A stretch of 64,000 bases of DNA from contig DAIDHS010000002.1 in assembly GCA_027451985.1 (NCBI GenBank), positions 91,241 to 155,240 of the forward strand, written 5' to 3'. This stretch comes from Elusimicrobiota bacterium (GTDB lineage: Bacteria > Elusimicrobiota > Elusimicrobia > UBA1565 > UBA9628). Within the stretch, counting starts at the first letter, position 1; every line of letters begins with the position of its first letter. The translations under genes were made by a program, and so were the position numbers. Positions 36,188 to 57,155 of the stretch are shown here, one piece after another. Below the pieces are notes generated by a model, which saw only the letters and a list, made by a program, of their open reading frames with translations, was not told the origin of the DNA and made no database searches.

Positions 36188-37294
36188 TCAGGAGGCGGCG
36201 GGCTTAAAGGCGCACCACGGATCGGAGGCCAAGTAGTCCCCCGTCAAAGCGTAGGCTCGAGCGCGGGAGCCTCCGCACAAGGAGGCGAATTCGCAGCGGC
36301 CGCACTTGCCTTTGAGCAAAAGAGGATTCCGCAGATCGCGAAAAACCGGAGAGTTTCTGTAAACTTCGGCCAGCGAATTTCGGCGCACGTTCCCGGCGAC
36401 GATGGGCAAAAATCCCGATGGATAGACGTTCCCCACATGATCGACGAAAAGAAAACCTTTGCCTGCGTTGACCGCTTGCCGAGAGGACATCCGGTGCCCC
36501 TGTACGCCGACGCGAAAGCGCTGAACCTGGTCCAGTCGCCGCTGGAGCGCGAATCGCGCATAATGGGGCGCCTCGGTAATTTTAGCGACGAACGCACCGC
36601 CTTCGATGGAGGCGCTTTCCTGATTCAATTCGTAAACCCGCTCAAAAAGCGTTTCGCAGCGCCGGGCGGATAAGCCCGTCAGCCCCCGGCCCCGGCCCAT
36701 GGGAACAAGCAGGAAAATTTCCCAGAACACAGCTCCCAAATCCTGGACCAGCTTGATCATCTCCTCCAAGCAAGGCAAATTCCACGCGCCGAAGCAGGTG
36801 TTGATTTGAAGAGGCAACCCCGCTTTTCTGACCTCGGCCGCGGCGGCAATGGTTCGGGCGAATGCGCCTGGCACGCCGCGAAAAGAGTCGTGGAGTTCGG
36901 CATTAGGCGCGTCTAGGCTCAGGGCCAACTGATCGAGCCCAGCGTCCCTAAGAGATTCAAGTCTCGCTCGGGTCAGCCGCGGAGTCGCCGCGGGAATGGC
37001 GCCTGTATGCAGGCCGCGCATCTTCGCTCGGCGGACGAATACTTCCAGGTCGTCGCGGTTCAGCGCGTCGCCTCCGGAAAAAACCATGATTTTAGCCAGT
37101 GCCGCGGCCTCATCGACAATCCGCAAGCCCTCCTCGGTATTGAGCTCGCCCGGATCGCGGCGCATGTCAGCTTCGGCGCGGCAATGCTGGCAGGCCAAGG
37201 CACACGCCCTAGTCGTTTCCCAAATAATCAGAAGCGGCGAGCGATCGAAATCCAATTCGCTAAAGGAGGGGCGGGTCCCAGGCTTGGCGTTCAC
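36188..37294 (-). CDS. Radical SAM/SPASM protein, NirJ/AhbC-D-like
   Basis: The 368-residue enzyme has the radical SAM cluster motif CALACQHC near 31-38 and a C-terminal SPASM-type Cys set (GKCGRCEFASLCGGSRARAY plus a final DPWCAF) for a second Fe-S cluster. The block VYPSGFLPIVAGNVR is typical of heme-pathway radical SAM proteins (NirJ, AhbC/D) and relatives of unknown function. A role in heme or heme d1-like synthesis, or in peptide modification, would suit the cytochrome-rich surroundings. It overlaps the CBS gene by ATGA. Confidence 0.85.
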   Translation of the reverse strand: MNAKPGTRPSFSELDFDRSPLLIIWETTRACALACQHCRAEADMRRDPGELNTEEGLRIVDEAAALAKIMVFSGGDALNRDDLEVFVRRAKMRGLHTGAIPAATPRLTRARLESLRDAGLDQLALSLDAPNAELHDSFRGVPGAFARTIAAAAEVRKAGLPLQINTCFGAWNLPCLEEMIKLVQDLGAVFWEIFLLVPMGRGRGLTGLSARRCETLFERVYELNQESASIEGGAFVAKITEAPHYARFALQRRLDQVQRFRVGVQGHRMSSRQAVNAGKGFLFVDHVGNVYPSGFLPIVAGNVRRNSLAEVYRNSPVFRDLRNPLLLKGKCGRCEFASLCGGSRARAYALTGDYLASDPWCAFKPAAS

Positions 37295-37758
37295 GCGGCC
37301 TGCTCCCCGAAATGCTGGGCAGCGCGCAGGATATCCATGGTCGTGACGATGCCGGTCAGCCGGCCGGCGCGCGTGATGATAACGCGGTGCACCTTCTGAA
37401 CGAGCATGATGCGACTTATCTTATCGAGCGGCTCGCTCTCATCAGCCTTGATGACCCGCCGAGTCATCAAATCCCGGACCAGCGCCCGCCTACCGTTGGT
37501 CGGCAAGCGAACATCCGGTTCGGAATCGGAATAAAAATCGGCCAGCTTCGCGGCCTTGGTCTCCAAATAGCGCACCAAATCCGTTTGAGAAATGACGCCG
37601 ACAAGCTGGCCGCTGGCTCCAATGACGGGAGCTCCCGTAATATCGTGGGCGATGAGCGTCTTTATGGCGCTCCAGATGTCCTCGGTCTCATTGATGGCGA
37701 TGATGTCGGAGCTCATCACATCTCCGGCCGTCAACGGCACCACCTTCTTCTCTATCAT
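37291..37758 (-). CDS. CBS-domain pair protein
   Basis: The 155-residue protein consists of two CBS domains: the first around VMSSDIIAINETEDIWSAIK to ISQTDLVRYLE, the second around DLMTRRVIKADESEPLDKIS to GIVTTMDILRA. Free-standing CBS pairs bind adenine nucleotides and act as energy or redox sensors. It has AAGGGGAG before the ATG, lies 9 bases after one radical SAM gene and overlaps the next, so it belongs to their operon and may regulate them. Confidence 0.92.
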   Translation of the reverse strand: MIEKKVVPLTAGDVMSSDIIAINETEDIWSAIKTLIAHDITGAPVIGASGQLVGVISQTDLVRYLETKAAKLADFYSDSEPDVRLPTNGRRALVRDLMTRRVIKADESEPLDKISRIMLVQKVHRVIITRAGRLTGIVTTMDILRAAQHFGEQAA

Positions 37759-37767
37759 CGCTCCCCT

Positions 37768-38418
37768 TTAATTGTCTTCCTGCAAACTTGGCCTTAGGAA
37801 ATACTCAGCCCCCATGCTTTGGGCCAAGGCGCGGACGGCCTCCGGATTGGGGCCGATTCCCGCGACCGTCGTCACTCGCGTCTCCAGGCCTGCGGCCACG
37901 CATTCCCGGACAAAAGAAACGACATCCTGGAAGCAATTTCTGTATGCCGGCGCCGGACGCTGGATGCGCCGCCACTCCTCGGGGCTTGCCGCGTTAAGGC
38001 TGATGGAAACGGCTTCTATGCGATCTTTCAGGTCCGGTACGATGCTTCTTTTCCAAATGGCGTTTCCGAGTCCGACGGTATTAAGGCGGCGTCGCAGTCC
38101 GGGGAACTCTCGCGCCATGTCCGCGCCGACCGCGCGGATGACGTCCAACCGGTAAGTCGGTTCTCCGTAGCCGCAAAACACCAACTCCTTGATGGGCTTG
38201 GCCGCCGCGGCCTTCATGGCCGCCGATAAAATCGCGGCGACGGGCGGCTCGCCGTTGAGCTTTAAGTTCCAGCCGCGATAACGCCATTGCCAGCTCCGCT
38301 TGATGCAGAACGAGCAGGCCGTCGGACACCGGTTGGTGATGTTGAGATAGAGGCCATCCTTATAATAGTAGGCCAGCGTGGGCTTCTCGCCTGTTGTAGA
38401 AGCGGCATTAGTAATCAT
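37768..38418 (-). CDS. Small radical SAM protein, TatD-associated type
   Basis: The 216-residue protein carries CPTACSFC in the opening LYLNITNRCPTACSFCIKR, then the GEPTYRLD block and a short partial barrel. Length and motif order match the small TatD-linked radical SAM family, whose function is unknown. No tatD gene is in view. It is the first gene of a radical SAM-CBS-radical SAM operon and begins only a few bases after a predicted sigma-54 transcription start. Confidence 0.85.
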   Translation of the reverse strand: MITNAASTTGEKPTLAYYYKDGLYLNITNRCPTACSFCIKRSWQWRYRGWNLKLNGEPPVAAILSAAMKAAAAKPIKELVFCGYGEPTYRLDVIRAVGADMAREFPGLRRRLNTVGLGNAIWKRSIVPDLKDRIEAVSISLNAASPEEWRRIQRPAPAYRNCFQDVVSFVRECVAAGLETRVTTVAGIGPNPEAVRALAQSMGAEYFLRPSLQEDN

Positions 38419-38433
38419 GTTATTTTGCTAATA

Positions 38434-38448
38434 GCAACATAAAGGCCA
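38434..38448 (-). promoter_or_regulatory. Sigma-54 promoter of the radical SAM-CBS-radical SAM operon
   Basis: Minus strand TGGCCTTTATGTTGC has GG-N10-GC and a perfect TTGC. Its sequence matches the promoter at 46711-46725 in 14 of 15 positions. Transcription would begin near 38422, 4 bases before the ATG, so the transcript would be nearly leaderless. Confidence 0.7.
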
Positions 38449-38465
38449 TCGGAACCGTCCACTCT

Positions 38466-38984
38466 CTACGGCTCTTTCTCCAGATAGTCGGCAATTGCAG
38501 CCCAGGACTTCTTCATTCCCTTTTCCATCTGATCAATTTTTTCTCCGACTTCATGCGCAAGCGAGCGTCGGATCGAGCGGCTGCCAAGGCTGTTGTAGAA
38601 AGGCCACAAAAGATTTTCCTCGGTTTCAAAATGAAACTTAAGCCCTTGCACAAGGCGCAAAACTCCGGATTTGAGGCGCCCGAAATCGCAGTGTTCAGCG
38701 TTTGGCAAAAGAGCCTCGATTTCCGCCCGCAGGGCCTCGATTTCCCCGTGCTGAGCGGCGACTAAGGCTAAAACTCTCCGGGCTTCCCTTTCCGCATAGT
38801 CGGCATCCCCAAAAAGAAGGCTCTCGACTTCCTCGTGGCGTTCCAGGGCTGGAAGAAGAACGCGCATCGCCTCGGCAACTTTGCGCCGAGCGATCCTCTC
38901 CTCGCGATCGAGGCTGAATTCGCACTGCAATCCCACGCTGGAGAACAGCCGGTGTTCGCGCGCCAAACTTGCAAAGACGCCCAT
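38466..38984 (-). CDS. Hemerythrin-like domain protein
   Basis: The 172-residue all-helical protein has the spaced His/Glu ligands of a hemerythrin-type di-iron site: REHRLF, ERHEEVESLLF, QHGEIEAL and FHFETEENLLWP. Such proteins bind oxygen or sense oxygen, NO or iron. GGGGA precedes the ATG at 38984. It is 17 bases downstream of a PAS histidine kinase gene and presumably works with it in oxygen or redox sensing. The longer frame to 39119 is a shadow of the kinase. Confidence 0.85.
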   Translation of the reverse strand: MGVFASLAREHRLFSSVGLQCEFSLDREERIARRKVAEAMRVLLPALERHEEVESLLFGDADYAEREARRVLALVAAQHGEIEALRAEIEALLPNAEHCDFGRLKSGVLRLVQGLKFHFETEENLLWPFYNSLGSRSIRRSLAHEVGEKIDQMEKGMKKSWAAIADYLEKEP

Positions 38985-39001
38985 GGCTTTTCCCCACCGG
39001 C

Positions 39002-40126
39002 TCAGCCAACGAACGCCTCGGCCTGCGCCGGCGGCAGCCGGATGATGAACTCGCTTCCCGCGCCAAGTTCGGATTTCGCTTCGATGGCGCCGCCCATCGC
39101 CCGCAAGGCCTCGCGGCAAAAGGCCAAGCCCATGCCGTTGCCCTTGATTTTCCCCTCACGCCGCGCCTTGGCTTGGTAAGCGCGGTCGAAAAGAAAGGGA
39201 AGGTGCTCCGGCGCGATGCCGGAACCGGTGTCTTTCACTCTCAGAGCGACCCCTCCCTCTTCTTCGGCCCCGGAAATGATCACGCGCCCGCCCTGCAGAG
39301 TGAATTTAAGGGCGTTGTTGAGAAGATTTTGGAGAACACGCGAAAGCAGCGCCTCGTCGGCCAGGACTTTAAGGCCATCCGGCACGGCCACGGAAACTTC
39401 GACCCCACCGACCTGTGCGGCCACCGCCTGCTCTTCGACGCATTTGCCCACCAAATCTGCGATCAGAATATTTCCAGGATGCACAGGAACCGTTCCGGCG
39501 TCGAATTGGGCGAGTTCCAAAAAGAGATCGAGAAGCTCCGTCATGCGCGCGCAGGCCCTGATACTGACGTCCAACAATCCCTTTTCGCTTGGGTGCAGTG
39601 GCTTGCCCGCGGGAATGTCTTCCAGCGTCTTTAAAACGCCGTAAATATTGGCCAACGGCGAACGCAAGTCGTGCGCGATCATCCGGCGCCACTCTTCGCC
39701 ACCGCGCTCGCGTTCCGCCTCTTCCGAGGCGTCCTCGATGAGCGTCAAGTGCCTCTCGGACTTGCCCCCGCCCACCGTCATTCCCGGAATGCGCAGGCAG
39801 CGTACGCGCAGATTTTTCCACTCCTCCTCGCGATTGGGGCCGGATTCCTTCCATGTATAGACCGTCTTGGGTCCATATTTGCCTTCAAACGTGGCGGTTT
39901 CCGCCTTGGCTGCGGGCTCCAACAAAGGGCAATGCTGGACGCAGGCTCCGGAATCCGCTTTGGAGAGAAGACCGCACAGTCGGTCACAAAGCTTGACGTC
40001 GGACTCGCCTTCCCCGACGTCGAGCATGCGGCGGGCTGCGGAGTTGGCGTAGAGAACGCGTCCCCGTTCATCCGAAACGCAGACGCCGTCGGCAACCTTC
40101 CCAAAAAGGTCTTCAAGCGCTTCCAT
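39002..40126 (-). CDS. PAS-domain histidine kinase
   Basis: The 374-residue soluble protein has one N-terminal PAS domain (LFGKVADGVCVSDERGRVLY) containing several Cys (LCDRLCGLL, ACVQHCPLL) that could bind a cluster or act as thiol switches. It then has HisKA with the acceptor His in MIAHDLRSPLANIYG near 152 and an ATPase domain (LLNNALKFTLQGG, DTGSGIAP, GNGMGLAFCRE). GGGGGGTG precedes the ATG at 40126. It is cotranscribed with the hemerythrin gene and divergent from the cytochrome/Cyc2-like operon, so that operon is a candidate target. No receiver gene is adjacent. Confidence 0.92.
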   Translation of the reverse strand: MEALEDLFGKVADGVCVSDERGRVLYANSAARRMLDVGEGESDVKLCDRLCGLLSKADSGACVQHCPLLEPAAKAETATFEGKYGPKTVYTWKESGPNREEEWKNLRVRCLRIPGMTVGGGKSERHLTLIEDASEEAERERGGEEWRRMIAHDLRSPLANIYGVLKTLEDIPAGKPLHPSEKGLLDVSIRACARMTELLDLFLELAQFDAGTVPVHPGNILIADLVGKCVEEQAVAAQVGGVEVSVAVPDGLKVLADEALLSRVLQNLLNNALKFTLQGGRVIISGAEEEGGVALRVKDTGSGIAPEHLPFLFDRAYQAKARREGKIKGNGMGLAFCREALRAMGGAIEAKSELGAGSEFIIRLPPAQAEAFVG

Positions 40127-40193
40127 AAAGCACCCCCCACGCTCCTTTTTATACCGCAACGAATATTCACAGGCCTTCCCGCAGCTGGCCTTT

Positions 40194-40208
40194 CGGCATG
40201 TTTGTTGC
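40194..40208 (+). promoter_or_regulatory. Sigma-54 promoter of the cytochrome-Cyc2-like operon
   Basis: CGGCATGTTTGTTGC has GG-N10-GC and a perfect TTGC; the first base is C instead of T. It is nearly the same as the YceI promoter (GGCAT-N4-G-TTGCT). Transcription would start near 40220, giving a 125-nt leader before the cytochrome ATG. Confidence 0.7.
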
Positions 40209-40225
40209 TAGAGTTCAAAACGATG

Positions 40226-40259
40226 GATTTAAATCATTTCTGCCATAGATTTAAGTCAT
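40226..40259 (+). repeat. Tandem 12-mer, probable operator
   Basis: GATTTAAATCAT (226-237) and GATTTAAGTCAT (248-259) differ by one base and repeat at a 22-base period, two helical turns, so both copies face the same side of the DNA. The core GATTTAAATC is itself a palindrome. It lies between the predicted start of transcription and the cytochrome gene. Confidence 0.5.
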
Positions 40260-40344
40260 GCCCCCTTCGATACGGATTTTTGAAGATATGGCCGGCAAAT
40301 TAATAAACTGTACTGGCTTTAATGCCAGACGAGGAGAATCGTTC

Positions 40345-40893
40345 ATGAAGAAAATCGTATTCACCGTTGCCGTCGTCGCCGTTGCTCTGGCTATCGGAAA
40401 AGTCGCCCAACAAAACCAGGTACAGGCCCAACAGAGCAATACTGCCGGAGGGCTTTTCCCCAACGATTTCGGACCGGCCAGTATCGACGTTTCCTCCTAT
40501 CCCAAGCAGTACCAGGAGACCTATAAAGTCTTCCTGGAAAAGTGCTCCGTCTGCCACACCATCGCTCGGCCCATCAACTCCCAGTTCCTGGAAATGTCCG
40601 AGGCCGAGCAGGCGCAAATGAAAAAGACGCAGCCCGAGTTATTTAAGGATCCTAAAATCCTTCAGATTGACCCGCACATCTGGTCCCGCTATGTGCACCG
40701 CATGATGGACAAGCCCGGCTGCCCGGTCGGCAAGGACGGCAAGCGCATCTGGCAATTCCTGGTCTACGATTCCATCGCGCGCAAAACCGGAAAAAACTTC
40801 GCCGCCTGGGAAAAAACCCGGGAGAAGCTTGTGAAGGACTTCAAAGTCCAGCACCCCGCAAGATACAAAGAGCTTTTCGACGAAGGGCAGTAA
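40345..40893 (+). CDS. Periplasmic monoheme cytochrome c
   Basis: The 182-residue protein has a signal peptide (KKIVFTVAVVAVALAIGKVA) and one heme c site CSVCH at about 67-71. Its conserved block, PASIDVSSYPKQYQETYKVF followed by the heme and TIARPINSQF, recurs in the cytochrome at 59500-60021, so the two are paralogs. Downstream Met and His residues could give the sixth heme ligand. The ATG at 40345 has GAGGAG. It is followed after 24 bases by the Cyc2-like gene and is a natural periplasmic electron carrier for it. Confidence 0.88.
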   Translation: MKKIVFTVAVVAVALAIGKVAQQNQVQAQQSNTAGGLFPNDFGPASIDVSSYPKQYQETYKVFLEKCSVCHTIARPINSQFLEMSEAEQAQMKKTQPELFKDPKILQIDPHIWSRYVHRMMDKPGCPVGKDGKRIWQFLVYDSIARKTGKNFAAWEKTREKLVKDFKVQHPARYKELFDEGQ

Positions 40894-40917
40894 TCTAAAA
40901 CAAGGACCATAGACCGA

Positions 40918-42336
40918 ATGAAAACCTCATCTCTCAAGCGTTGGGCCCAAAGCCTGGGATTCTTAGCCGCTTACCTGGCGTTTCTCTGGCTGGCACAGCC
41001 GATGATCAATTCCGCACTCCACCTTTGCCCCATGCGCGGCGACGGCGTCCAGGGCGCAGACGCCCTTCCGGCCTTCGCCCGGAAGTACCACATGTCCTGC
41101 GAGCAATGCCACTACGCCTTTCCCGTCTTGAACGCCTACGGCCGGCAATTCAAGATGAACGGCTACGTCAGGACCCCGGGAAGCGATGAGGGCGTGCTCC
41201 AGAGCCAGGATAAGGAACTCTGGACCGAAAAGCTCTTTCCCTGGGCCGCCATCATCCGCTCCCGCCCCTTTGATGACGGCAAAGGCGGCGTGGCCAACCA
41301 AGGCAGCCAGATGGGCGGCACGGCCAGCCCCAACACCAACGGCTTCAAGATACAGGCCATCAACGACGTGGACATGTTCGTGGCCGGCGGTGACGCCGCC
41401 AGGCAGGTCTCCTTCTTCGGGGAAATGGACGCCAACGCTCCCGGCGGCTTCTCCCCGAGCCTGGGCGACATCCGGCTTGGCTACCATCCCAGCCTGTATT
41501 TCAACGCGGTGGCCATGCGGCGCGGGTTCTTCGCCGACGATCCCTATCAGACCATCGTCTCCAACGAAAGTCCCACCATCGCCAACCGGGCCACGGACCT
41601 GCTCTTCAAGGATCAGGGCTCCATCTCGGGCAACCAAATGGTGTCGACGCCGCAGACCCTCGAGATCTACGGCCAATACTTCCTGCCCCACAACCAAGAC
41701 TCCTTTTCCGCCCCGTCCTTCCTCTACTACTCTGGCGCCGTCTACAAGAATGCGGACTCCGGCACGCAGGCCAGCGCCCCCACCGACGGGGCGGTACGCC
41801 TAGCCTGGGATGACACCGGCAATACGGGGCTCATGCTGGGCACTTTCGGCACCTACGGGCATGAAGGTCCCATGACCTCAAGCACCATAGGATTGCAAGT
41901 GGCCAGTCCATACACCGAGCTGACTCAGTTCGTGCGCGGCGGATTCGACGCCCTTTGGGAGGGCGCCGGCTTCGCCGCGCGGGCGGCTTTCGTCTATTCG
42001 CACGATGAGGACCCCGCCGTTCGCGGTGCGGTGGCCACCGACCGGGCGGCCTATGCCGAGTTGGCCTACGACTACACAAGGAACAACAATAGCTATCCCT
42101 TCCTGATGCCCTTGGTGCGGGAGAATTGGTACACGACCTTCAACGGAGCGCAGCAGTTCAATTACCTGACCTTCCAGCTGGCGCACTACTTCGCGGCCAA
42201 CCTCAAGGCCTTCGTGGAGTACTCGCTCGACACCAAGCGCGCCTACCAGGGCGGATCGCTGGCCGCGCAGGGTTCCGACGGCACTTTCCAACCCTTGGGA
42301 GACCGTCTCACCGCCCAAGTCGAGGTCGGGTTCTAA
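40918..42336 (+). CDS. Cyc2-like outer-membrane cytochrome-porin fusion, copy 1
   Basis: The 472-residue protein has an N-terminal hydrophobic export segment (FLAAYLAFLWLAQP), a short heme c domain with ALPAFARKYHMSCEQCH at 50-65 followed by FPVLNAYGRQFKMNGY, and then about 380 residues of alternating beta strands ending in Phe (VEVGF), as in an outer-membrane barrel. One heme fused in front of a barrel, and the total length, are the known architecture of Cyc2/Cyt572, the outer-membrane Fe(II) oxidase. The similarity is by motif and layout, so the electron donor is unproven. A near-identical central part occurs in the gene at 47646-49082. Confidence 0.75.
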   Translation: MKTSSLKRWAQSLGFLAAYLAFLWLAQPMINSALHLCPMRGDGVQGADALPAFARKYHMSCEQCHYAFPVLNAYGRQFKMNGYVRTPGSDEGVLQSQDKELWTEKLFPWAAIIRSRPFDDGKGGVANQGSQMGGTASPNTNGFKIQAINDVDMFVAGGDAARQVSFFGEMDANAPGGFSPSLGDIRLGYHPSLYFNAVAMRRGFFADDPYQTIVSNESPTIANRATDLLFKDQGSISGNQMVSTPQTLEIYGQYFLPHNQDSFSAPSFLYYSGAVYKNADSGTQASAPTDGAVRLAWDDTGNTGLMLGTFGTYGHEGPMTSSTIGLQVASPYTELTQFVRGGFDALWEGAGFAARAAFVYSHDEDPAVRGAVATDRAAYAELAYDYTRNNNSYPFLMPLVRENWYTTFNGAQQFNYLTFQLAHYFAANLKAFVEYSLDTKRAYQGGSLAAQGSDGTFQPLGDRLTAQVEVGF

Positions 42337-42359
42337 CGGAGCGCGCATAAGGCCGGCCC

Positions 42360-43334
42360 ATGCCGCGAAAGGAGAAGCGCGCCATTTCCGAGACGTATCA
42401 GAAATACGCGCTGGGGCTGGCGAAAAACGAGCTTCTAAAACGGGATCCCCTTGCAGGAGAAGGGTCCGGGAGAAGGCAGGCGCTTGTCAACCAGCTTATT
42501 CGCCGCGGCGTCAAAGGCTGGCCTGAGCGCGGCACGTTCTACACGGGTCTTCTGGCTCCCGGATGCATCCCGTGCCTTGGCGGCCGCGGCAGCAATCTAT
42601 GCCTCACGACGCTTTGCACGAGGGACTGCTTTTTCTGCTTCAACCCCAAGCCCCGAAGCGAAGGGATTAGCGTCCACGGCTTAGCCATCTCCTCCGAGAG
42701 CGACATCCCGCGCATTCTCGCAGAACGCGGCATCCGAAGCGTGGGAATCAGCGGCGGAGAGCCCCTCTTAAAACCTGATGCCGTGCTGCGAATCATCAAA
42801 ATTCTGCGCGAACATTTTCGCGAAACCTTGCGCATTGATCTCTACAGCAACGGCGACAGGATTACCGCGAGCCTCCTTCGGGATTTACACTCGGCAGGCC
42901 TGAGCGGGATGCGCCTCAACCTCGCGGCCAACGGCTACAATCCCGCGCCGCTGGAGACGGCCCTTCGAGAATTTTCCGACGTGAGCGTCGAGATCCCGGT
43001 CATTCCTAGGCACGTCAAGCGTCTTCAAAAGATGGTGCGAGAAATGGCCCGCATCAAAGCGCCGCGGCTCATCCTCCACGAGCTTTTCGTATCGGCCCAG
43101 AATGCCGACGCGCTGCGCCGTCTAGGCATGCATGCTGCGGACAAAATGGGCGAAAAACTGACCTGGTCGCCCGTAGCAGGCAGCGACGAGGCCGCGCTTG
43201 AGCTCCTTTTATACGGCATGGACCATGCCCCCGAACTTTCCATCTATTACTGCTCGACCGGAACGCAGGAATGGATCGCGGAAAACGCCTTGGCGCATGC
43301 CGGAAGCCCCCCCACCCCAAACTCCATGCCATAG
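42360..43334 (+). CDS. Radical SAM protein following the Cyc2-like gene
   Basis: The 324-residue enzyme has the cluster motif CTRDCFFC, preceded by extra cysteines (GCIPCLGGRGSNLCLTTLC) that may bind a further cluster. The SAM-binding GISGGEPLL follows. AAGG precedes the ATG 23 bases after the Cyc2-like stop, so it is in the same operon. I do not recognise the subfamily. A role in maturing the upstream cytochrome-porin or in heme or cofactor chemistry is suggested only by position. Confidence 0.85.
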   Translation: MPRKEKRAISETYQKYALGLAKNELLKRDPLAGEGSGRRQALVNQLIRRGVKGWPERGTFYTGLLAPGCIPCLGGRGSNLCLTTLCTRDCFFCFNPKPRSEGISVHGLAISSESDIPRILAERGIRSVGISGGEPLLKPDAVLRIIKILREHFRETLRIDLYSNGDRITASLLRDLHSAGLSGMRLNLAANGYNPAPLETALREFSDVSVEIPVIPRHVKRLQKMVREMARIKAPRLILHELFVSAQNADALRRLGMHAADKMGEKLTWSPVAGSDEAALELLLYGMDHAPELSIYYCSTGTQEWIAENALAHAGSPPTPNSMP

Positions 43335-43373
43335 AACGATTACCGGCTGCGCCCAAAAAGGAAAAACGCCCGC

Positions 43374-44288
43374 ATGGAAACCAATGCCGTGCAGAAAGTC
43401 GATATAAAGCTGGGGTTCACGTGCAACAATCGCTGCAGTTTTTGCGTACAAGGCGACAAGCGCTTTTCAACCCCCGCACGGGACTGGGGGCGCATCGCCG
43501 AAGACCTCGAGCAAGGATTCCGGAACGGGGCACGAAGCCTAGTGCTCACGGGCGGAGAACCGACTCTGCAACCACGACTTCTGGATGCCGCGCGATTGGC
43601 GCGGACCATCGGATACAGCGTCGTCCAGATTCAGTCGAACGGACGGCGCTTTTTCTATCGCGACTTTTGCCGGGCCTGCATCGACGCCGGAGCCAACGAA
43701 TTCTCTCCCGCGCTCCACGGCTCCTGCCCAGAGATCCACGATAGTTTGACCCGTGCCCCGGGAAGCTTCCTGCAAACGCTTCACGGCATCCGCAACCTCA
43801 AGGAGCTCGGCCAAACCGTCATAGCCAACACCGTGATTACCGCCGGCAATTATCAAGATCTCCCTCGCCTGGCCGGACTTCTCGTTTCGCTGGGAGTCGA
43901 TCAATTCCAATTTGCTTTCGTTCATGTTCTGGGGGAAGCGCGAAAAAACGCGTCTTGGCTCGTCCCGCGAAAAAGCGCGGCGGCGCCCTTCATTCAAGAG
44001 GGCCTGCGCATCGGGCGCGAAGCCGGCGTCCGCTGTTTTACTGAAGCCATTCCTTACTGCTTCATGAGGGAGTTCGAGGATTGCATCGCGGAAAAAATCA
44101 TACCGCAGACCCTTATTTTTGATGGGAATAATGTCATCCCTGACTACAACTCCTATCGGCACACCCTGGGAAAAACCAAAGGCCCGCAGTGCCGAATTTG
44201 CCGCTACTTTACGGTTTGCGAAGGCCCTTGGAAAGAATATCCGGAATTATTTGGTTGGGACGAATTTTTCCCGATTGCCGCGCCTTAG
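43374..44288 (+). CDS. Second radical SAM protein of the Cyc2-like operon
   Basis: The 304-residue protein has CNNRCSFC close to its N terminus (LGFTCNNRCSFCVQGDKRF), the SAM-binding LTGGEPTLQ and a C-terminal auxiliary Cys set (CRICRYFTVCEGPWKEY). It lies 39 bases after the first radical SAM gene, with AAGGA before the ATG. Together the two are the third and fourth radical SAM genes within 8 kb. Its 3' end overlaps the convergent ccsA gene by 42 bases. The substrate is unknown. Confidence 0.85.
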   Translation: METNAVQKVDIKLGFTCNNRCSFCVQGDKRFSTPARDWGRIAEDLEQGFRNGARSLVLTGGEPTLQPRLLDAARLARTIGYSVVQIQSNGRRFFYRDFCRACIDAGANEFSPALHGSCPEIHDSLTRAPGSFLQTLHGIRNLKELGQTVIANTVITAGNYQDLPRLAGLLVSLGVDQFQFAFVHVLGEARKNASWLVPRKSAAAPFIQEGLRIGREAGVRCFTEAIPYCFMREFEDCIAEKIIPQTLIFDGNNVIPDYNSYRHTLGKTKGPQCRICRYFTVCEGPWKEYPELFGWDEFFPIAAP

Positions 44289-45890
44289 CTTAAAGCCGCA
44301 AACCCAGAGAAACAGCGCCAGCAATGCCAGTTCCGTGGCGATAAAGCGGAAAAGCCAAACGGCGGTGACGTCCGTAAAGCCGTACGAATGAAGCCCAACA
44401 CCCAGCATGTCGACTCCGAACCAGGACAGGGATGTTAATATCCCGCCCGCAATCGCCGACACCGCCAAGCCGTCCTCATCGAGATAGCCCCCAATCTTGG
44501 CGTGCAGAATCACCGCGTTCCAAAGCACGATCAGCAGAGCGCCATTTTCTTTCGGATCCCAGCCCCAAAATCGCCCCCAGGACTGATCCGCCCAGATGCC
44601 ACCCAGAACGGTCCCCAAGAAGCTGAAAAAAAGCGCGAGGCAGACAACGCCGTAAACCATCGAAGATAGCGCGGCCTCATCGCGCTTGCCGTACCGCTTG
44701 TTTCCCAAAAGCCGCCGGAAAACATGAATATGTCCAAGCGCTACGGCGAGGAACATAGCGCCGTAGCCCAGTGTGATGGCGACGACATGCGTGCTCAGCC
44801 AAAAATTGGAATTGAGCACGGCGCGCATCATTTCGATGGTGTCTCCATTGAGCGCCAAGTGGTGGGCGATAATAAGGGTCGCAAAACCGACCGCAGAGGC
44901 GGACAAAGCAGCGGAACCATCGGGGGCGCGCCCTTCCAGCCAGATCGCGGCGGCCACGGCGGCCCAGCCGACGAACACGGCAGAGGAATACAAGTTCGTT
45001 ACCGGCGGGCGCCCCTGTATGAGCATTCGCGCGGTTAAACCGCCCGTGTGCACCAGAAAGGCCGCGGCCAGAACCGTATAGCACGCGGCTCGCATGGATT
45101 TGCGCCACCGTTCTCCGCCCGCGAATGAAAGGAGCCCTAAAAGAAAAGCCGCCAAATAAAGAATCATCCCCCGGTAAAACGGCTCAATCCGGTTGAAAAG
45201 CGCTTCGAATCTAACCCGCCGCAGCGGCACGTCTGGGCGGCTCTTGAGCCAGGTTTGATCCAAATTCAGGACGCTGTTGAACCGGGCGGCATCTTCGGCG
45301 TGATAGCTTTGTAACATGGAAAAATAATCGGCGGCGGCACTTGGTTCGCGTGGATAAATGCTGAATTTGGCGTTTTCGTCATCAGGAGGGATCTTCGGGT
45401 TGGCCGCATCTTGGAGGCGCTCATAAAGCATCAAGCGCCTCGCCAGTCCCAGTGCGGCGGAATCAAAACGGGAGCGCTGCGGAGCATTGTCTGCCTCGAT
45501 GCGGGCGATTTGGTCCGCCAAAACGTCCACGGACGGCTTAAGCTCATCGAAAGAAAAACGCCGGCGTTCCGTAGATGGCAGGCCCAGGAACGTCCTAAGC
45601 TGAGGATCGTCAATAAGAAACACGTGGTAAGAATCTGCCGTTTCAGGCCGCGTTAGAAGGTTCAGGAGCCACCGATCGGCTCCAAGGCTGCCGTTGTCCG
45701 CGCCCAGCGTCTGCTTTCCGCTAATAATAAGCAACGAATCGCGCGCGACCGTGTCAAACGGCTTAATTCTGCCTTCCGAAAGGACCGGAAGCGATCCGAA
45801 TCCATCGAGATTCATGCCTGCCGGAAATTTTGCGGGCGCGGGCACGAGCGCGAGACACGCCAATATGGCGGCGGCATAAGTCTTCCTCAT
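44247..45890 (-). CDS. ccsA: Cytochrome c maturation protein CcsA/ResC (system II)
   Basis: The 547-residue protein has a signal-like first helix, a periplasmic region of about 220 residues, and then about eight membrane segments. The heme-handling tryptophan-rich WWD motif is clear (DQSWGRFWGWDPKENGALL), and conserved His residues flank it (LSTHVVAITLG, LHSYGFTD). It exports and presents heme for attachment to CxxCH proteins, together with ResB. The ATG at 45890 overlaps the resB stop (TAATG). The large periplasmic insert is common in CcsA fusions of some lineages. Confidence 0.92.
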   Translation of the reverse strand: MRKTYAAAILACLALVPAPAKFPAGMNLDGFGSLPVLSEGRIKPFDTVARDSLLIISGKQTLGADNGSLGADRWLLNLLTRPETADSYHVFLIDDPQLRTFLGLPSTERRRFSFDELKPSVDVLADQIARIEADNAPQRSRFDSAALGLARRLMLYERLQDAANPKIPPDDENAKFSIYPREPSAAADYFSMLQSYHAEDAARFNSVLNLDQTWLKSRPDVPLRRVRFEALFNRIEPFYRGMILYLAAFLLGLLSFAGGERWRKSMRAACYTVLAAAFLVHTGGLTARMLIQGRPPVTNLYSSAVFVGWAAVAAAIWLEGRAPDGSAALSASAVGFATLIIAHHLALNGDTIEMMRAVLNSNFWLSTHVVAITLGYGAMFLAVALGHIHVFRRLLGNKRYGKRDEAALSSMVYGVVCLALFFSFLGTVLGGIWADQSWGRFWGWDPKENGALLIVLWNAVILHAKIGGYLDEDGLAVSAIAGGILTSLSWFGVDMLGVGLHSYGFTDVTAVWLFRFIATELALLALFLWVCGFKLRRGNREKFVPTK

Positions 45891-46696
45891 TAAACGTGCG
45901 CTCCTCGGCGTAACTTTCCCAGGAAATGAAGCAGAAGTCCCGACCCGATCATCAGGCAGGCCGCGTAGGGCAAGAGCCAACCGGGATTGCGGGTAACCTC
46001 AAGGATGGAGGACTTGCCCCCCTGAACAAAGCTCGCCTGGTAGAATGCAAATCCTCCGTAACGCAAAGGATGATTCATGCTAATCAGCACTTGTCTGTGC
46101 ACATGCCTTAATGGATTATCTAACTCGACAAGACTGGAGAAAGCCCTCGGAATATTCGTATACGGATAGTAGTCGCTGGTAAAGCGCTTAAGAGTCAGAC
46201 TGAAGGGAAGCTTGCGGAATGAGGAGGAGTGCGCGCTTTCCATTTCCGAAACGCTTTCGCCTTGGGGAAGAATCATCCGCGACTCCGACTGGAGCGCTCC
46301 CGTGACGAACTGTCCACCCAAAAGCAGTATGAGACCCACATGAGTGAGCCAAAGCCCCAGTTTGCGCCAAGTCAAGCTGAGGCGCACGAACATCGCCGCC
46401 GTTAGATTAAGGATCAGCACCGCGCCCGTGGCCCCTCCCGCAGGCAAAATGGGAATGGCCGGCCATCCGGCAATTGGACGAAAACTGAGGAAAGCGCTGT
46501 CTATAAAAATACGCACTGATTCGTAGTTCCCCAGCCACACCTGCGCCACAGTGCACAACGCCACCAGAACCATCAGCCACAGCATGGCGGCAAGCGCCAC
46601 TTCCACGGAGGCAATGCCCCCCACTATGCGCTTCCATGCGGGAATGCCAGATCGCCTGGAGTAAAGAGATTGCGGATGAACAGATGAAGCTCTCAT
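45890..46696 (-). CDS. resB: ResB-like cytochrome c maturation protein (system II)
   Basis: The 268-residue protein has four membrane segments with a periplasmic domain between the third and fourth, the ResB/Ccs1 layout. HPLRYGGFAFYQASFVQ is the family block before the last helix. With CcsA it makes the system II heme lyase. It is shorter than typical ResB (about 450), as in other lineages with minimal forms. The ATG at 46696 lies 3 bases after the predicted sigma-54 start; a GTG at 46624 with GGAAG is an alternative start that would give a normal leader. Confidence 0.85.
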   Translation of the reverse strand: MRASSVHPQSLYSRRSGIPAWKRIVGGIASVEVALAAMLWLMVLVALCTVAQVWLGNYESVRIFIDSAFLSFRPIAGWPAIPILPAGGATGAVLILNLTAAMFVRLSLTWRKLGLWLTHVGLILLLGGQFVTGALQSESRMILPQGESVSEMESAHSSSFRKLPFSLTLKRFTSDYYPYTNIPRAFSSLVELDNPLRHVHRQVLISMNHPLRYGGFAFYQASFVQGGKSSILEVTRNPGWLLPYAACLMIGSGLLLHFLGKLRRGAHV

Positions 46697-46710
46697 TTAT
46701 TTTTTATCAA

Positions 46711-46725
46711 GCAACATAAAAGCCA
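46711..46725 (-). promoter_or_regulatory. Sigma-54 promoter of the resB-ccsA operon
   Basis: Minus strand TGGCTTTTATGTTGC has GG-N10-GC and a perfect TTGC. It matches the promoter at 38434-38448 in 14 of 15 positions. The predicted start is near 46699, just before the resB ATG. It is back to back with the promoter at 46750-46764. Confidence 0.7.
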
Positions 46726-46749
46726 CCAATCCGAAGCCTTTCAATATTT

Positions 46750-46764
46750 TGGCCACTGTGTTGC
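46750..46764 (+). promoter_or_regulatory. Sigma-54 promoter of the FNR-type regulator gene
   Basis: TGGCCACTGTGTTGC has GG-N10-GC, the full TGGC of the -24 box and TTGC at -12. Transcription would begin near 46776, 3 bases before the ATG at 46779. It overlaps an upstream TTG codon (46749), which argues against that codon as the start of the regulator. Confidence 0.7.
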
Positions 46765-46778
46765 ATGAACACATCCAT

Positions 46779-47576
46779 ATGAGAAGACGGCCTTCTTGCC
46801 AGGGCGCCTCCTGCCCTTTACAGAATTTTCCCCTTTTTGAAGGGCAATCTCCGGAGCTTTGGCAGCAATTTGCGAACACCGTCGTTGCCAACAACTATAA
46901 ACGCAACGACATTCTTTTCTACGAGGGCAACATTCCCCAGGGCATCTACTTTATGTGCCAGGGACGCCTCAAGCTAATTAAGGACAACCACTCCGGCAAA
47001 AGCCAGATCGTGCGCATTGTGGAAGCGCCCAATCTCGTCGGAGACAGATCCTTTTTCTCGGAGCGGCCCTACGCCAGTTCCGGCGTCATAATGGAAGACG
47101 CGACGATTTGTTTCCTTAGCACCCGGCGCTTCTGGAGTCTTTTCGATAGCCAGACCGGCCTTGCACGGCGGATGGCGCAACGCTTCGCACGTGAGTTGGG
47201 AAAAGCCGAGGAACAGATGCATTGCCTGGCGGTGTGCACGGTCAATGGGCGTCTCGCGGCCTATTTGCTAAAAAAAACCGCCCCGGCGCGGCCGGCCAAT
47301 AACGGCAACGGCGGAGACTTTAAAATAAATAACCGCGCCCACACGGCGACCGTAGAGCTTAAGGAAAGCCGCACCGAACTCGCGCAAATTTTAGGAACTA
47401 CCGTCGAGGCCGTCAGCCGCGCGCTGGCGGAACTCCGGCGCAAGGGCGTTATTCGCGTAGACGGCCGTAAAATATCAATCCAAGACGCAGAACGCCTGGG
47501 CCGGATCGGGTGCAATAACTGTGCGGCCAGCTGGAGCTGGAACAACGAAGTTGACAAAAATCAAACCCTGCTTTGA
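46779..47576 (+). CDS. FNR-type transcription regulator
   Basis: The 265-residue protein has an N-terminal Cys pair (CQGASC at 7-12), a cyclic-nucleotide-fold sensor domain (NDILFYEGNIPQGIYFMCQG, VGDRSFFSERPY), a dimer helix and a C-terminal HTH. The recognition helix TTVEAVSRALAEL has the E-x-x-S-R pattern that in FNR reads TTGAT half sites. Three such boxes occur in this window. The four-Cys cluster pattern of E. coli FNR is not reproduced exactly, so the sensed signal (oxygen, NO or redox) is open. I chose the ATG at 46779; the TTG at 46749 lies inside the promoter. Confidence 0.88.
   Translation: MRRRPSCQGASCPLQNFPLFEGQSPELWQQFANTVVANNYKRNDILFYEGNIPQGIYFMCQGRLKLIKDNHSGKSQIVRIVEAPNLVGDRSFFSERPYASSGVIMEDATICFLSTRRFWSLFDSQTGLARRMAQRFARELGKAEEQMHCLAVCTVNGRLAAYLLKKTAPARPANNGNGGDFKINNRAHTATVELKESRTELAQILGTTVEAVSRALAELRRKGVIRVDGRKISIQDAERLGRIGCNNCAASWSWNNEVDKNQTLL
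47551..47564 (+). promoter_or_regulatory. FNR box upstream of Cyc2-like copy 2
   Basis: TTGACAAAAATCAA matches TTGAT-N4-ATCAA with one mismatch. It lies within the last codons of the FNR-type gene. With TATAGC at 47585-47590 as a -10 box, its centre falls about 40 bases before the start of transcription, the usual place for FNR class II activation of the gene at 47646. Confidence 0.7.
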
Positions 47577-47645
47577 CTCCATTTATAGCGGTCCTGCAAA
47601 CATCCTGGATATGATGCTTAAGTCGTTATAATCCAGGAGGTAAAA

Positions 47646-49082
47646 ATGGAAGGGCAAAAAATCAAACGGTTCTCGCGATGTTCGCACATCTTTAAGTTGA
47701 CGACAGTTGCGATTACGGGTCTAGCGTTGTTTTGGCTGGCCCCCCCGATGGTGCATCAATTGGAGCATTTATGCCCGGCGCGCCCGGACGGCGTGACGCA
47801 GGTGTACGCGCTTCCAAGTTTTGCGCGGGAATATCACATGTCATGCGAGCAATGCCACTACGCCTTCCCCGTCTTGAACGCTTTCGGCCGGCAATTCAAG
47901 ATGAACGGATACGTGGTAGTCCCCGGAAGCGATCAGGGGGTGCTCCAGAGCCAAGATAAGGAACTCTGGACCGAGAAGCTCTTCCCCTGGGCCGCCATCA
48001 TCCGCTCCCGCCCCTTTGACGACGGCAAAGGCGGCGTGGCCAACCAAGGCAGCCAGATGGGCGGCACGGCCAGCCCCAACACCAACGGCTTCAAGATACA
48101 GGCCATCAACGACGTGGACATGTTCGTGGCCGGCGGTGACGCCGCCAGGCAGGTCTCCTTCTTCGGGGAAATGGACGCCAACGCTCCCGGCGGCTTCTCC
48201 CCGAGCCTGGGCGACATCCGGCTTGGCTACCATCCCAGCCTGTATTTCAACGCGGTGGCCATGCGGCGCGGGTTCTTCGCCGACGATCCCTATCAGACCA
48301 TCGTCTCCAACGAAAGTCCCACCATCGCCAACCGGGCCACGGACCTGCTCTTCAACGATCAGGGCTCCATCTCAGGCAACCAAATGGTGTCGACCCCGCA
48401 GACTCTCGAGGTCTACGGCCAGTATTCCCTCCCCATAATCCAGAACTCTTTCCTCTACTACTCCGGCGCCGTCTACAAGAACAAGGACTCGGGCACGCAG
48501 GCCAGCGCTCCCACCAACGGAGCGGCGCGCCTAGCCTGGGACGATACCGGCAATACGGGGCTCATGCTGGGCACTTTCGGCACCTACGGGCACGAAGGTC
48601 CCATGGCCGCAGCCGGGGCGAGCAGCGGTGCGCCGGGATTGAGCGTGGCGGGTCCTGGGGGCGAACTCACTCAATTCGTGCGCGGCGGCTTCGACGCGCT
48701 CTGGGAGCATGGCAATTTCGCGGCGCGGGCGGCTTTCGTCTATTCGCACGATGAGGACCCCGCCGTTCGCGGCGCGGTGGCCACCGACCGGGCGGCTTAT
48801 GCCGAAGTTGCATACAAATACCTCAGGAACGACAATCTCTATCCCTTCCTGATGCCCTTGGTGCGGGAGAACTGGTACACGACCTTCAACGGGGCGCAGC
48901 AGTTCAACTACCTGACCTTCCAGTTGGCACACTACTTCGCGGCCAACCTCAAGGCCTTCGTGGAGTACTCGCTCGACACCAAGCGCGCCTACCAGGGCGG
49001 CTCGCTTGCCGCGCAGGGCTCCGATGGCACTTCCCAACCCTTGGGAAACCGCGTGTCGCTGCAGGCAGAAGTAGGATTCTAG
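47646..49082 (+). CDS. Cyc2-like outer-membrane cytochrome-porin fusion, copy 2
   Basis: The 478-residue protein has the same layout as copy 1: export helix (LTTVAITGLALFWLAPP), heme c motif YHMSCEQCH with the heme Cys at 68, then a long barrel ending VEVGF. The N-terminal 60 residues differ strongly from copy 1, while the central barrel is nearly identical, including 335 bp with no base change. A loop of about 8 residues near position 325 (AAAGASSGAP) differs. AGGAGG precedes the ATG. It has its own FNR-box promoter and no radical SAM partners, so the two copies may serve different conditions. Confidence 0.75.
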   Translation: MEGQKIKRFSRCSHIFKLTTVAITGLALFWLAPPMVHQLEHLCPARPDGVTQVYALPSFAREYHMSCEQCHYAFPVLNAFGRQFKMNGYVVVPGSDQGVLQSQDKELWTEKLFPWAAIIRSRPFDDGKGGVANQGSQMGGTASPNTNGFKIQAINDVDMFVAGGDAARQVSFFGEMDANAPGGFSPSLGDIRLGYHPSLYFNAVAMRRGFFADDPYQTIVSNESPTIANRATDLLFNDQGSISGNQMVSTPQTLEVYGQYSLPIIQNSFLYYSGAVYKNKDSGTQASAPTNGAARLAWDDTGNTGLMLGTFGTYGHEGPMAAAGASSGAPGLSVAGPGGELTQFVRGGFDALWEHGNFAARAAFVYSHDEDPAVRGAVATDRAAYAEVAYKYLRNDNLYPFLMPLVRENWYTTFNGAQQFNYLTFQLAHYFAANLKAFVEYSLDTKRAYQGGSLAAQGSDGTSQPLGNRVSLQAEVGF

Positions 49083-49359: not shown

Positions 49360-50280
49360 TTACTCGGCCGTTCCTTTGGGCCGAGGGGCTTCTGCGGCGA
49401 GTTTGGCAAGTTCCGCGTGAAATGACAGCCACTGGCTCCGATCGAGAGTAGCTGCGGCAGGCTCGAAACCGTTGCGCGGCGCGTCCGCCATGACAACGCC
49501 GGCGAAAAGATTCAAATTCTCACGCCATCCGGGAACCAGCGCGAGCACGGCTGCCGCTCTTTGCGGATCGGCGATGAGCCGCCGGCAGAGCCTGGCACCG
49601 AGGCTGTCATCCAAAACGGGAGGCATCCGAACCGCCTGCGGCGCCCTATATTCTGCCGCCATGTGCTCCATGACTATGGGCACGGCCACTTTATTAGGAG
49701 TTCGAGTTCCTCCGGAAAAATGATACTCGACCTCCAATCGATTGATTTCCGCGGCCTTGTCGTCATGGTGATTGAAATGGCCGAGGGACTGCACGTAATG
49801 GGCCAGCGCGAAGCGGTCCGCCACAGAAAGAGTGCCGAAAGATCCCATGGCGGTCTTGGGAATTCCGGCGGTTAAGGTCTCATAGATGTCGGCGATCGTG
49901 TAGCCGCGCGTCCAACCCCGCGGGCTCGTGAAATTTCGCGGCGGAGGCTTGAGCGCCGCAGCCACAGGGCCATTCCCTTGCCCCGTCATGCCGTGACAGG
50001 CAACGCAAGAAGTGGCAAAAACTGTTTTACCGCGGGCCAGCGCCTGCGGAGCAGCATCGAACATTTCAGGGAGGTTGACACCGGCAGTCGTTACTTTGCC
50101 TATGACGGTTTTAAAAACCGTCGGATCGGGAGATTCCTTATTGGCCGCAATAGCCTGGCTATAGGTCAGGCCCTGAGCGCCATGCCCATTCATAAGCACC
50201 CGCCCGACAACAAGAATGCCGCCAAAGACCACGACCGCACCCGCCGTAGTGGCGATAATTGCCTTCGTCTGCTCGGACAT
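49360..50280 (-). CDS. Membrane-anchored monoheme cytochrome c of the alternative complex III operon
   Basis: The 306-residue protein has an N-terminal membrane helix (IIATTAGAVVVFGGILVVG) and a periplasmic cytochrome domain with one heme site CVACHGMTGQGNGP, then a C-terminal extension of about 150 residues with no heme. It is last in the act operon. I chose the ATG at 50280, which has AGGAAAGAGGGG upstream; an ATG at 50295 overlaps the actF stop by ATGA and is also possible. It may accept electrons from the complex or add an extra cytochrome subunit. Confidence 0.8.
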   Translation of the reverse strand: MSEQTKAIIATTAGAVVVFGGILVVGRVLMNGHGAQGLTYSQAIAANKESPDPTVFKTVIGKVTTAGVNLPEMFDAAPQALARGKTVFATSCVACHGMTGQGNGPVAAALKPPPRNFTSPRGWTRGYTIADIYETLTAGIPKTAMGSFGTLSVADRFALAHYVQSLGHFNHHDDKAAEINRLEVEYHFSGGTRTPNKVAVPIVMEHMAAEYRAPQAVRMPPVLDDSLGARLCRRLIADPQRAAAVLALVPGWRENLNLFAGVVMADAPRNGFEPAAATLDRSQWLSFHAELAKLAAEAPRPKGTAE

Positions 50281-50291
50281 CCCCTCTTTCC

Positions 50292-56949: not shown

Positions 56950-57151
56950 GACGTTTCACCGATCCGCTCGCAGGCCTGATGCTCCCCCACGCACCATGGG
57001 ACTTCGCATTAAAGCGCGGGCCTCTCCGCTTTAACTCGGAGAGCAATCGGAGACCCGACGGCAAAATATTTTTTGCCACAACCACGACCGCCGAAATCGC
57101 AATAAGGAAAACTTCACGCCGAGTCAGCACCGGCTCTCTCGTCTCTTTCAT
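56942..57151 (-). CDS. Small membrane protein between actA and actB
   Basis: The 69-residue frame begins 4 bases after the actA stop and ends 8 bases inside actB, so it is translated within the operon. Residues 10-30 (TRREVFLIAISAVVVVAKN) look like a Tat-type signal or membrane anchor; the remainder is basic (KRRGPRFNAK). There is no heme or Fe-S motif. I know no such subunit in described alternative complex III operons, so it is either an assembly aid, a Tat-guided peptide or a small accessory subunit. Confidence 0.6.
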   Translation of the reverse strand: MKETREPVLTRREVFLIAISAVVVVAKNILPSGLRLLSELKRRGPRFNAKSHGAWGSIRPASGSVKRHG

Positions 57152-57155
57152 ATGG

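Follow-up and report, generated by a model that had tools for sequence, protein, structure and literature searches.

Two radical SAM genes behind a cytochrome-Cyc2 gene pair in Elusimicrobiota and their relation to His-Xaa-Ser maturation systems

Two radical SAM genes, rSAM1 and rSAM2, stand directly behind the genes for a monoheme c-type cytochrome and a Cyc2-like fused cytochrome-porin, presumably an iron oxidase of the outer membrane, in the window, as we call the whole stretch of 64,000 nucleotides that was analysed. The window comes from an Elusimicrobiota MAG of 2.4 Mb in 107 contigs that is 95.4% complete (G000). The gene order is conserved in five genomes of the order, rSAM2 is linked to the His-Xaa-Ser (Hxs) systems of the order, and there is no association with Cyc2 at large. 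We give even chances to the reading that rSAM1 and rSAM2 are an Hxs-type maturation pair, which was recruited into the Cyc2 operon and acts on a precursor made along with it. That the pair was recruited and not inherited, that it is catalytically active and what class of substrate it has are what we infer.

The cytochrome (182 aa, 40345..40893, plus strand, like the rest of the block) contains one CxxCH motif and matched no Pfam or NCBIfam family; its homologues adjoin Cyc2 in most of the Cyc2 loci that were read. It is followed by Cyc2 copy 1 (472 aa, 40918..42336), rSAM1 (324 aa, 42360..43334) and rSAM2 (304 aa, 43374..44288), with intergenic gaps of 24, 23 and 39 bases. The original prediction had given this gene order with short gaps, and the open reading frames are indeed found at these places, with coding-like codon use in all four according to a simple purpose-made scorer. 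Because of the gene spacing, the four genes are probably cotranscribed. A terminator scan of positions 40100-47700 yielded 14 sites, compared with 11.0 +/- 3.4 in shuffles, a number no higher than expected by chance. About 100 bases before the cytochrome gene, at 40226..40259 (plus strand), there are two direct 12-base repeats GATTTAA[A/G]TCAT, 22 bases apart, which could be a regulator site. They are the only two exact matches within the window; with up to 2 mismatches there are 10 matches, versus 4.78 expected.

According to the available part of PMC8406198, the Cyc2 motif consists of AXPXFAR[Q/K][T/Y] upstream of CXXCH and PXL downstream, and copy 1 conforms to it (ALPAFARKY-HMS-CEQCH-YAF-PVL). 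A second Cyc2-like copy (478 aa, 47646..49082, plus strand, 88% identical to copy 1) reads ALPSFAREY, with E in place of the expected Q/K. Both copies exceed the length of > 365 aa expected of Cyc2, and a Pfam search found no family for the Cyc2-like protein. By motif and length, copy 1 can be taken as a Cyc2, with a putative fused beta-barrel of 16 strands. The second copy had been described as unlinked and as lacking the radical SAM genes. There are indeed none behind it, but it is not far away, as it starts 3.4 kb downstream of rSAM2, with the converging genes for CcsB and ResB and one for a CRP-type regulator in between. A run of 335 consecutive bases is identical in the two copies, and their ends are only about 40-60% alike; this run of identity amid divergent ends looks like a sign of recent gene conversion. 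In the tree (duplicate copies of twice-fetched loci were dropped from the alignments and trees), Cyc2 copies pair within each genus, both in the window genus and in a second genus, g2, which would fit separate duplication or gene conversion.

The gene for the CcsB-like cytochrome c maturation protein (44247..45890, minus strand; TIGR03144 122.6 bits, cut-off 187.6, and PF01578) converges on rSAM2, and the ends of the two overlap by 42 bases. Its ResB-like partner (45890..46624, minus strand) is assigned by position; homologous pairs adjoin Cyc2 in two other loci (L119, L231). The CRP/FNR-type regulator (46779..47576, plus strand; PF00027, PF13545) precedes copy 2, and alternative complex III-like genes at 49360-57680 place an aerobic-type chain near Cyc2. 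On the other side of the block, a divergent group of minus strand genes (36188-40126) comprises a sensor histidine kinase (39002..40126; PF02518, PF00512), which is divergent from the cytochrome, a hemerythrin, a TatD-linked radical SAM protein (37768..38418; TIGR04038 157.4 bits, cut-off 129.7), a CBS protein and a TIGR04053-family radical SAM/SPASM protein related to AhbD (36188..37294; 403.4 bits, cut-off 395). Kinases that are 43-44% identical to the window kinase adjoin Cyc2 in L112-L114. In G150 and G166 (L113, L114), the same kinds of gene, the TIGR04053/TatD-linked pair included, surround a Cyc2 without rSAM1 and rSAM2. A contig of 7,254 bases is common to G166 and MAG 13 (L139), an acid mine drainage genome of order UBA1565 and family UBA9628 that carries Cyc2 according to the available part of PMC8357290. 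Cyc2 in this family is thus already known; a link to radical SAM enzymes is not mentioned in the accessible text of that paper, from which the term 'radical SAM' is absent. In agreement with the original prediction, no description of a Cyc2 requirement for radical SAM enzymes, nor any Cyc2-radical SAM link, was found in the partly accessible literature that was searched; a co-mention in a photosynthesis review concerned unrelated uses.

Both enzymes belong to the radical SAM superfamily by their CxxxCxxC motif and by Pfam Radical_SAM (PF04055), with 46.8 bits for rSAM1 and 72.7 bits for rSAM2 (cut-off 29.5). The extra cysteines predicted for both are real, and they are invariant in alignments of 32 rSAM1 and 12 rSAM2 sequences. 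In rSAM1, a CxxC ahead of the SAM motif (C69, C72) and a single Cys far behind it (C298) bring the invariant cysteines to six, together with C86/C90/C93. The HxsC4-like rSAM2 has C229 and a C-terminal CxxCx5C set (C273, C276, C282) in addition to C17/C21/C24.

For rSAM1 (AF2 model, pLDDT 87.6), a structure search found no solved structure above TM 0.50 of query and thus no substrate hint. Among the matches listed in a contig scan, homologues of at least 43% identity occur in Elusimicrobiota-like records only, and those from other phyla reach at most 39% over short stretches, or 26-30% over most of the protein. The enzyme represents an undescribed family of radical SAM enzymes with six cysteines, which is frequently found together with rSAM2: among the 56 genomes of the order (G000 included here and in all counts below), 32 have both, 10 only rSAM1, 3 only rSAM2 and 11 neither (p 0.0004; the Fisher tests for co-occurrence ignore kinship, and several of the 56 MAGs are incomplete). 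In the gene tree, from which rSAM1 relatives of more than 420 aa were excluded, the window rSAM1 forms a long branch, the placement of which is not settled. One orthologue of the Elusimicrobiota type is found in a MAG titled Bordetella parapertussis (L141); the label looks wrong, and the MAG misfiled. At the level of 26-30% identity, the relatives are about 440 aa long and come from Coriobacteriia, Anaerolineae and Clostridia; their genes often lie beside triads of genes for large, ferredoxin-like and membrane proteins. In gut Coriobacteriia (L155, L160, L166), these triads resemble molybdopterin oxidoreductases, of which only the ferredoxin-like small subunit matched, to the window ActB, so that the triads are not assigned to a family. 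In another genus, g4 (L101, L102, L121-L125 and others), rSAM1 adjoins and often overlaps a gene for a protein that resembles tyrosine phenol-lyase (TIGR02618 674 bits, cut-off 720.7). Because of this coupling, there is a hint that the usual rSAM1 chemistry may involve a tyrosine-derived piece.

An Hxs system has two radical SAM enzymes and a conserved peptide in which the His-Xaa-Ser unit is repeated dozens of times. The best curated models for rSAM2 are HxsC4 (NF038332; 144 bits, cut-off 500) and then HxsC (TIGR03977; 91.9 bits, cut-off 267.9). As these scores are far under the cut-offs, rSAM2 is best classed as a relative, not a member, of HxsC4/HxsC. An rSAM2 orthologue that is linked to Hxs genes (L090) also has HxsC4 as its best model and is likewise under the cut-off of 500, with 153.7 bits; rSAM1 reaches 35.7 bits with HxsC, under the cut-off of 267.9. 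The folds nearest to the AF2 model of rSAM2 (pLDDT 92.2) are BlsE, SkfB and SuiB, at TM 0.65-0.67 of query, and SuiB and SkfB are peptide maturases.

The presence of rSAM2 follows that of the Hxs system. With orthologues of rSAM2 counted at E <= 1e-60, the 56 genomes include 42 with rSAM1, 35 with rSAM2, 20 with Cyc2, 33 with HxsB over the cut-off and 33 with HxsA-type repeats. HxsB is present in 31 of the 35 rSAM2 genomes and in 2 of the 21 others (both, first only, second only, neither: 31/4/2/19; Fisher p 3.5e-9), and the table for the HxsA repeats has the same entries (31/4/2/19, p 3.5e-9). If only the 36 better genomes are considered, the picture stays the same (p 0.0001 for rSAM2-HxsB, p 1 for rSAM1-Cyc2). 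In 15 of the 35 genomes, rSAM2 shares a contig with parts of the Hxs system that are no more than 15 kb away, HxsB in 14 of them and HxsA repeats alone in 1. In G224 and G210, an HxsA4 gene overlaps the rSAM2 start (NF038313 72.9 and 61.9 bits, cut-off 55), and the rSAM2 orthologue directly follows HxsA4 in L088 and L089. Frames overlap or nearly touch in the order HxsD-HxsB-rSAM2-rSAM1 in L090 and rSAM1-HxsB-rSAM2 in L143 (HxsB 450.9 and 507.4 bits, cut-off 370). Elsewhere (L091, L104, L107), the rSAM2 orthologue overlaps a prepilin-peptidase-like gene (A24 24.9 in L091, cut-off 26.5). Maturation in Hxs systems is called putative in the available part of PMC9062424, and a literature search among partly accessible sources did not find a described product.

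A full Hxs system in the window was considered and rejected. The best HxsB match in the window genome has an E-value of 4.3e-9 and is under the cut-off, which 33 of the 56 genomes exceed, and the HGS/HAS repeat pattern of HxsA, matched by 33 of the 56 genomes, has 0 matches in G000. The reversed pattern, used as a control, has 0 matches in all 56 genomes; the forward pattern could miss HxsA types with other X residues, and His-Xaa-Ser repeats with such residues were not found within the window. Only four rSAM2 genomes lack HxsB over the cut-off, namely G000, G071, G223 and G084. In G084, HxsB is present as two adjoining pieces under the cut-off, and HxsA repeats are there. The remaining three all have the Cyc2 block, also lack the HxsA repeats, and keep the rSAM1/rSAM2 pair only next to Cyc2. 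In the sister family f4 (L104), an rSAM2 orthologue (57% identity) is clustered with a NifH-like fusion and many radical SAM genes, and no HxS repeats were found within the 20 kb read around it, so the rSAM2 family may also work outside Hxs. The fusion (L104:15389-17614) joins a NifH-like domain to a nitrogenase component 1-like domain amid about ten radical SAM genes. Groundwater Elusimicrobia reportedly have clusters of nitrogenase paralogues and radical SAM genes, which the L104 cluster presumably matches.

The block of cytochrome, Cyc2, rSAM1 and rSAM2 is found in 5 of the 56 genomes, G000 and four of genus g2. Conservation of the neighbourhood thus extends to a second genus but is narrow: Cyc2 is adjacent in 5 of the 42 rSAM1 genomes and 5 of the 35 rSAM2 genomes. 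The g2 block is on one contig each in G071, G094 and G223, in the order CBS - Cyc2 - cytochrome - AhbD-like - rSAM1 - rSAM2 - CopD-like; G268 has the same order from the Cyc2 end onward, with Cyc2 split over two contigs. The g2 frames of rSAM1 and rSAM2 overlap by 4-8 bases (in G094, they are 3 apart), and those of the AhbD-like gene and rSAM1 by 20-38. The AhbD-like gene scores 393-399 bits with TIGR04545, the best family for the 399.4-bit copy, and none of the 56 genomes has an AhbD over the cut-off of 500. Relative to g2, the window has cytochrome and Cyc2 in swapped order and lacks the AhbD-like gene. The rSAM2 tree does not join the window and g2 (AU test of a joint clade p 0.088, neither rejected nor supported). 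In view of the tree, the swapped order and the missing AhbD, the two operons may have formed independently. In genus g2 itself, G206 has neither rSAM1 nor an orthologue of rSAM2 nor any AhbD with a high score, and the single Cyc2 detected there is complex-III-linked; in the genus of the window, G266 (86% complete) has no match to rSAM1, rSAM2 or Cyc2.

The expected general co-occurrence of the enzymes with Cyc2 did not hold up. Of the 20 genomes with Cyc2, 15 have rSAM1, and so do 27 of the 36 without (odds ratio 1.0; 15/27/5/9 for both, first only, second only, neither; p 1), and the corresponding table for rSAM2 and Cyc2 is 16/19/4/17 (p 0.051). Both enzymes are absent from all nine alternative complex III-linked Cyc2 loci that were read. 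The notion that they are Cyc2-specific as a general rule was rejected, since rSAM1 is equally frequent with and without Cyc2. In most genomes the enzymes are far from any cytochrome-porin, which counts against the original prediction, whereas its neighbourhood is conserved in other genomes.

A residue shortly before the Cyc2 heme motif may set the linked copies apart. All five of them have His or Lys (YHMSC in G000, G094 and G071; YKMSC in G223 and, on a separate contig, G268). Eight of the nine complex-III-linked copies have Gly (YG.SC in G071, G206, G191, G201, G098, G203, G061 and G262, two of which differ in the surrounding residue order, e.g. GFSC) and one, in G084, has Lys (YKLSC), a difference with Fisher p 0.003. 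G071 has both kinds, HMS in the linked and GMS in the unlinked Cyc2. Both enzymes are present in 9 of 9 His/Lys genomes versus 3 of 8 Gly-only genomes (p 0.009; 17 of the 20 Cyc2 genomes examined). Copy 2 in the window, with its 335 bases shared with copy 1, also reads HMS, and three g4 copies with neither link have H, K and K, with both enzymes elsewhere in the genome. As a pointer to Cyc2 modification, this pattern is a suggestive but weak lead. It could mean that rSAM2, together with rSAM1, directly modifies the His/Lys-Met-Ser that immediately precedes the heme motif in these copies, and the relationship of rSAM2 to His-Xaa-Ser maturases would agree with this. We regard it as very improbable nonetheless: the residue is Lys in two of the five linked copies, so that a His-Xaa-Ser site is not present throughout, the three g4 copies have no adjacent rSAM1/2, related genomes are not independent, and a charged residue in this place may simply tune the heme. 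The wider idea that rSAM2 and its six-cysteine partner alter this stretch, or the partner cytochrome, before export, and thereby tune the potential or ligation of the heme in this copy of the outer-membrane iron oxidase but not in the complex-III-linked one, is hardly more credible. An extra cytochrome Cys (PGCPVG) was dropped as a target, as it is present in the window and L110 and absent in the second genus.

The pair might instead do its usual peptide or cofactor job and share no more than regulation with Cyc2, both being wanted under low-oxygen or Fe(II)-rich conditions, without a chemical tie. The lack of rSAM1-Cyc2 association, the complex-III-linked loci without the enzymes and the coupling of rSAM1 to the tyrosine phenol-lyase-like gene in g4 all agree with this, and CRP-type regulators precede Hxs operons (L090, L138) as well as Cyc2 operons (L092-L094 and copy 2 in the window). 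However, regulation alone would not call for the same pair with cytochrome and Cyc2 in two genera, for the overlapping g2 frames or for the lack of both enzymes in G206, and we consider shared regulation possible, though rather less probable than our preferred reading. Heme supply is a further candidate, with rSAM1, rSAM2 and AhbD-type enzymes acting on a tetrapyrrole and providing or altering heme for both cytochromes of the operon. The operon does encode two heme proteins, and in the four g2 genomes the AhbD-like gene lies between cytochrome and rSAM1 and overlaps the latter. G191 (L095:2614-5060) has a longer rSAM1 paralogue whose frame overlaps that of an AhbD-like gene, on a contig with Cyc2 and alternative complex III genes. 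Yet the window genome has no such AhbD (the best match, 302.5 bits, is the TIGR04053 protein at 36188-37294), and a ChdC/chlorite-dismutase-family gene, which stands for another way to heme b, is present there and in all five g2 genomes. Both facts make it less likely that heme biosynthesis explains the block. Moreover, rSAM1 and rSAM2 resemble other families far more than they do NirJ/AhbC/AhbD and are found in many genomes without Cyc2, so that we deem the heme route unlikely.

Recruitment of a maturation pair thus remains our preferred reading. The rSAM1/rSAM2 unit would have been taken over from the Hxs peptide systems, which are widespread in this Elusimicrobiota order, with rSAM2 as an HxsC4-like enzyme with an auxiliary-cluster domain, and would have become fixed behind the cytochrome-Cyc2 operon in two genera. 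In G000, G071 and G223, the pair would have persisted after loss of HxsA-type repeats and HxsB. Since the chemistry of radical SAM enzymes depends on a reduced iron-sulfur cluster, these enzymes act in the cytoplasm. Judging from signal-like N-termini and the System II genes, Cyc2 and the cytochrome are probably exported and receive their heme outside. The most likely target of the pair would then be a precursor, peptide or protein, that is made along with this Cyc2 copy and is still unfolded in the cytoplasm, and a modification would have to precede export, as for quinohemoprotein amine dehydrogenase. Candidate substrates are Cyc2, its partner cytochrome and a peptide encoded at an unlinked place. 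The earlier suggestion that the enzymes modify the porin-cytochrome or make a cofactor or peptide for it is borne out in part: the relationship of rSAM2 to HxsC-type maturases favours the peptide idea, and a putative modification of the porin-cytochrome itself is possible. An HxsC-like branch that lacks the peptide and stays with a cytochrome operon would be a small, testable system with few candidate substrates, all of them known. If the linked Cyc2 or cytochrome does carry a modification, this would be, as far as the partly accessible literature goes, the first such case among iron oxidases of this class, and it would matter for attempts at heterologous Cyc2 expression and for iron oxidation in bacteria other than Proteobacteria.

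The known systems resemble the window operon in different respects. QhpD (TIGR03906), a radical SAM enzyme, works in the cytoplasm, where it modifies a subunit of a heme enzyme that is then exported to the periplasm. The proposed mode is alike, with cytoplasmic modification of an exported heme protein, but TIGR03906 is not among the families shown for rSAM1 and rSAM2, and a quinone-type target is not known here. As for AhbD heme b synthase (TIGR04545), an AhbD-like gene is part of the g2 operon, whereas it is absent from the window operon, and rSAM1 and rSAM2 are not AhbD. The operon shares the Cyc2 motif and length, the cytochrome partner and a nearby aerobic-type chain with Cyc2 iron-oxidation operons, as described in the available parts of PMC8406198, PMC7029218 and, for Elusimicrobiota MAG 13, PMC8357290; it differs in its two radical SAM genes. 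The closest comparison is with Hxs (HxsA4 NF038313, HxsB TIGR03978, HxsC TIGR03977 or HxsC4 NF038332, HxsD TIGR03976), which provides the two best models for rSAM2 and the genes HxsA4, HxsB and HxsD that rSAM2 orthologues adjoin and co-occur with in other genomes of the order. Unlike Hxs, the window has the extra enzyme rSAM1, and the Cyc2 operon stands where Hxs has the peptide gene. Membership in Hxs is not claimed for the window pair: its scores are under the cut-offs, and HxsA repeats, HxsB and HxsD were not found alongside. The best reading of these comparisons is that rSAM2 and its partner would be an HxsC4-like maturase without the rest of Hxs, placed in a Cyc2 operon.
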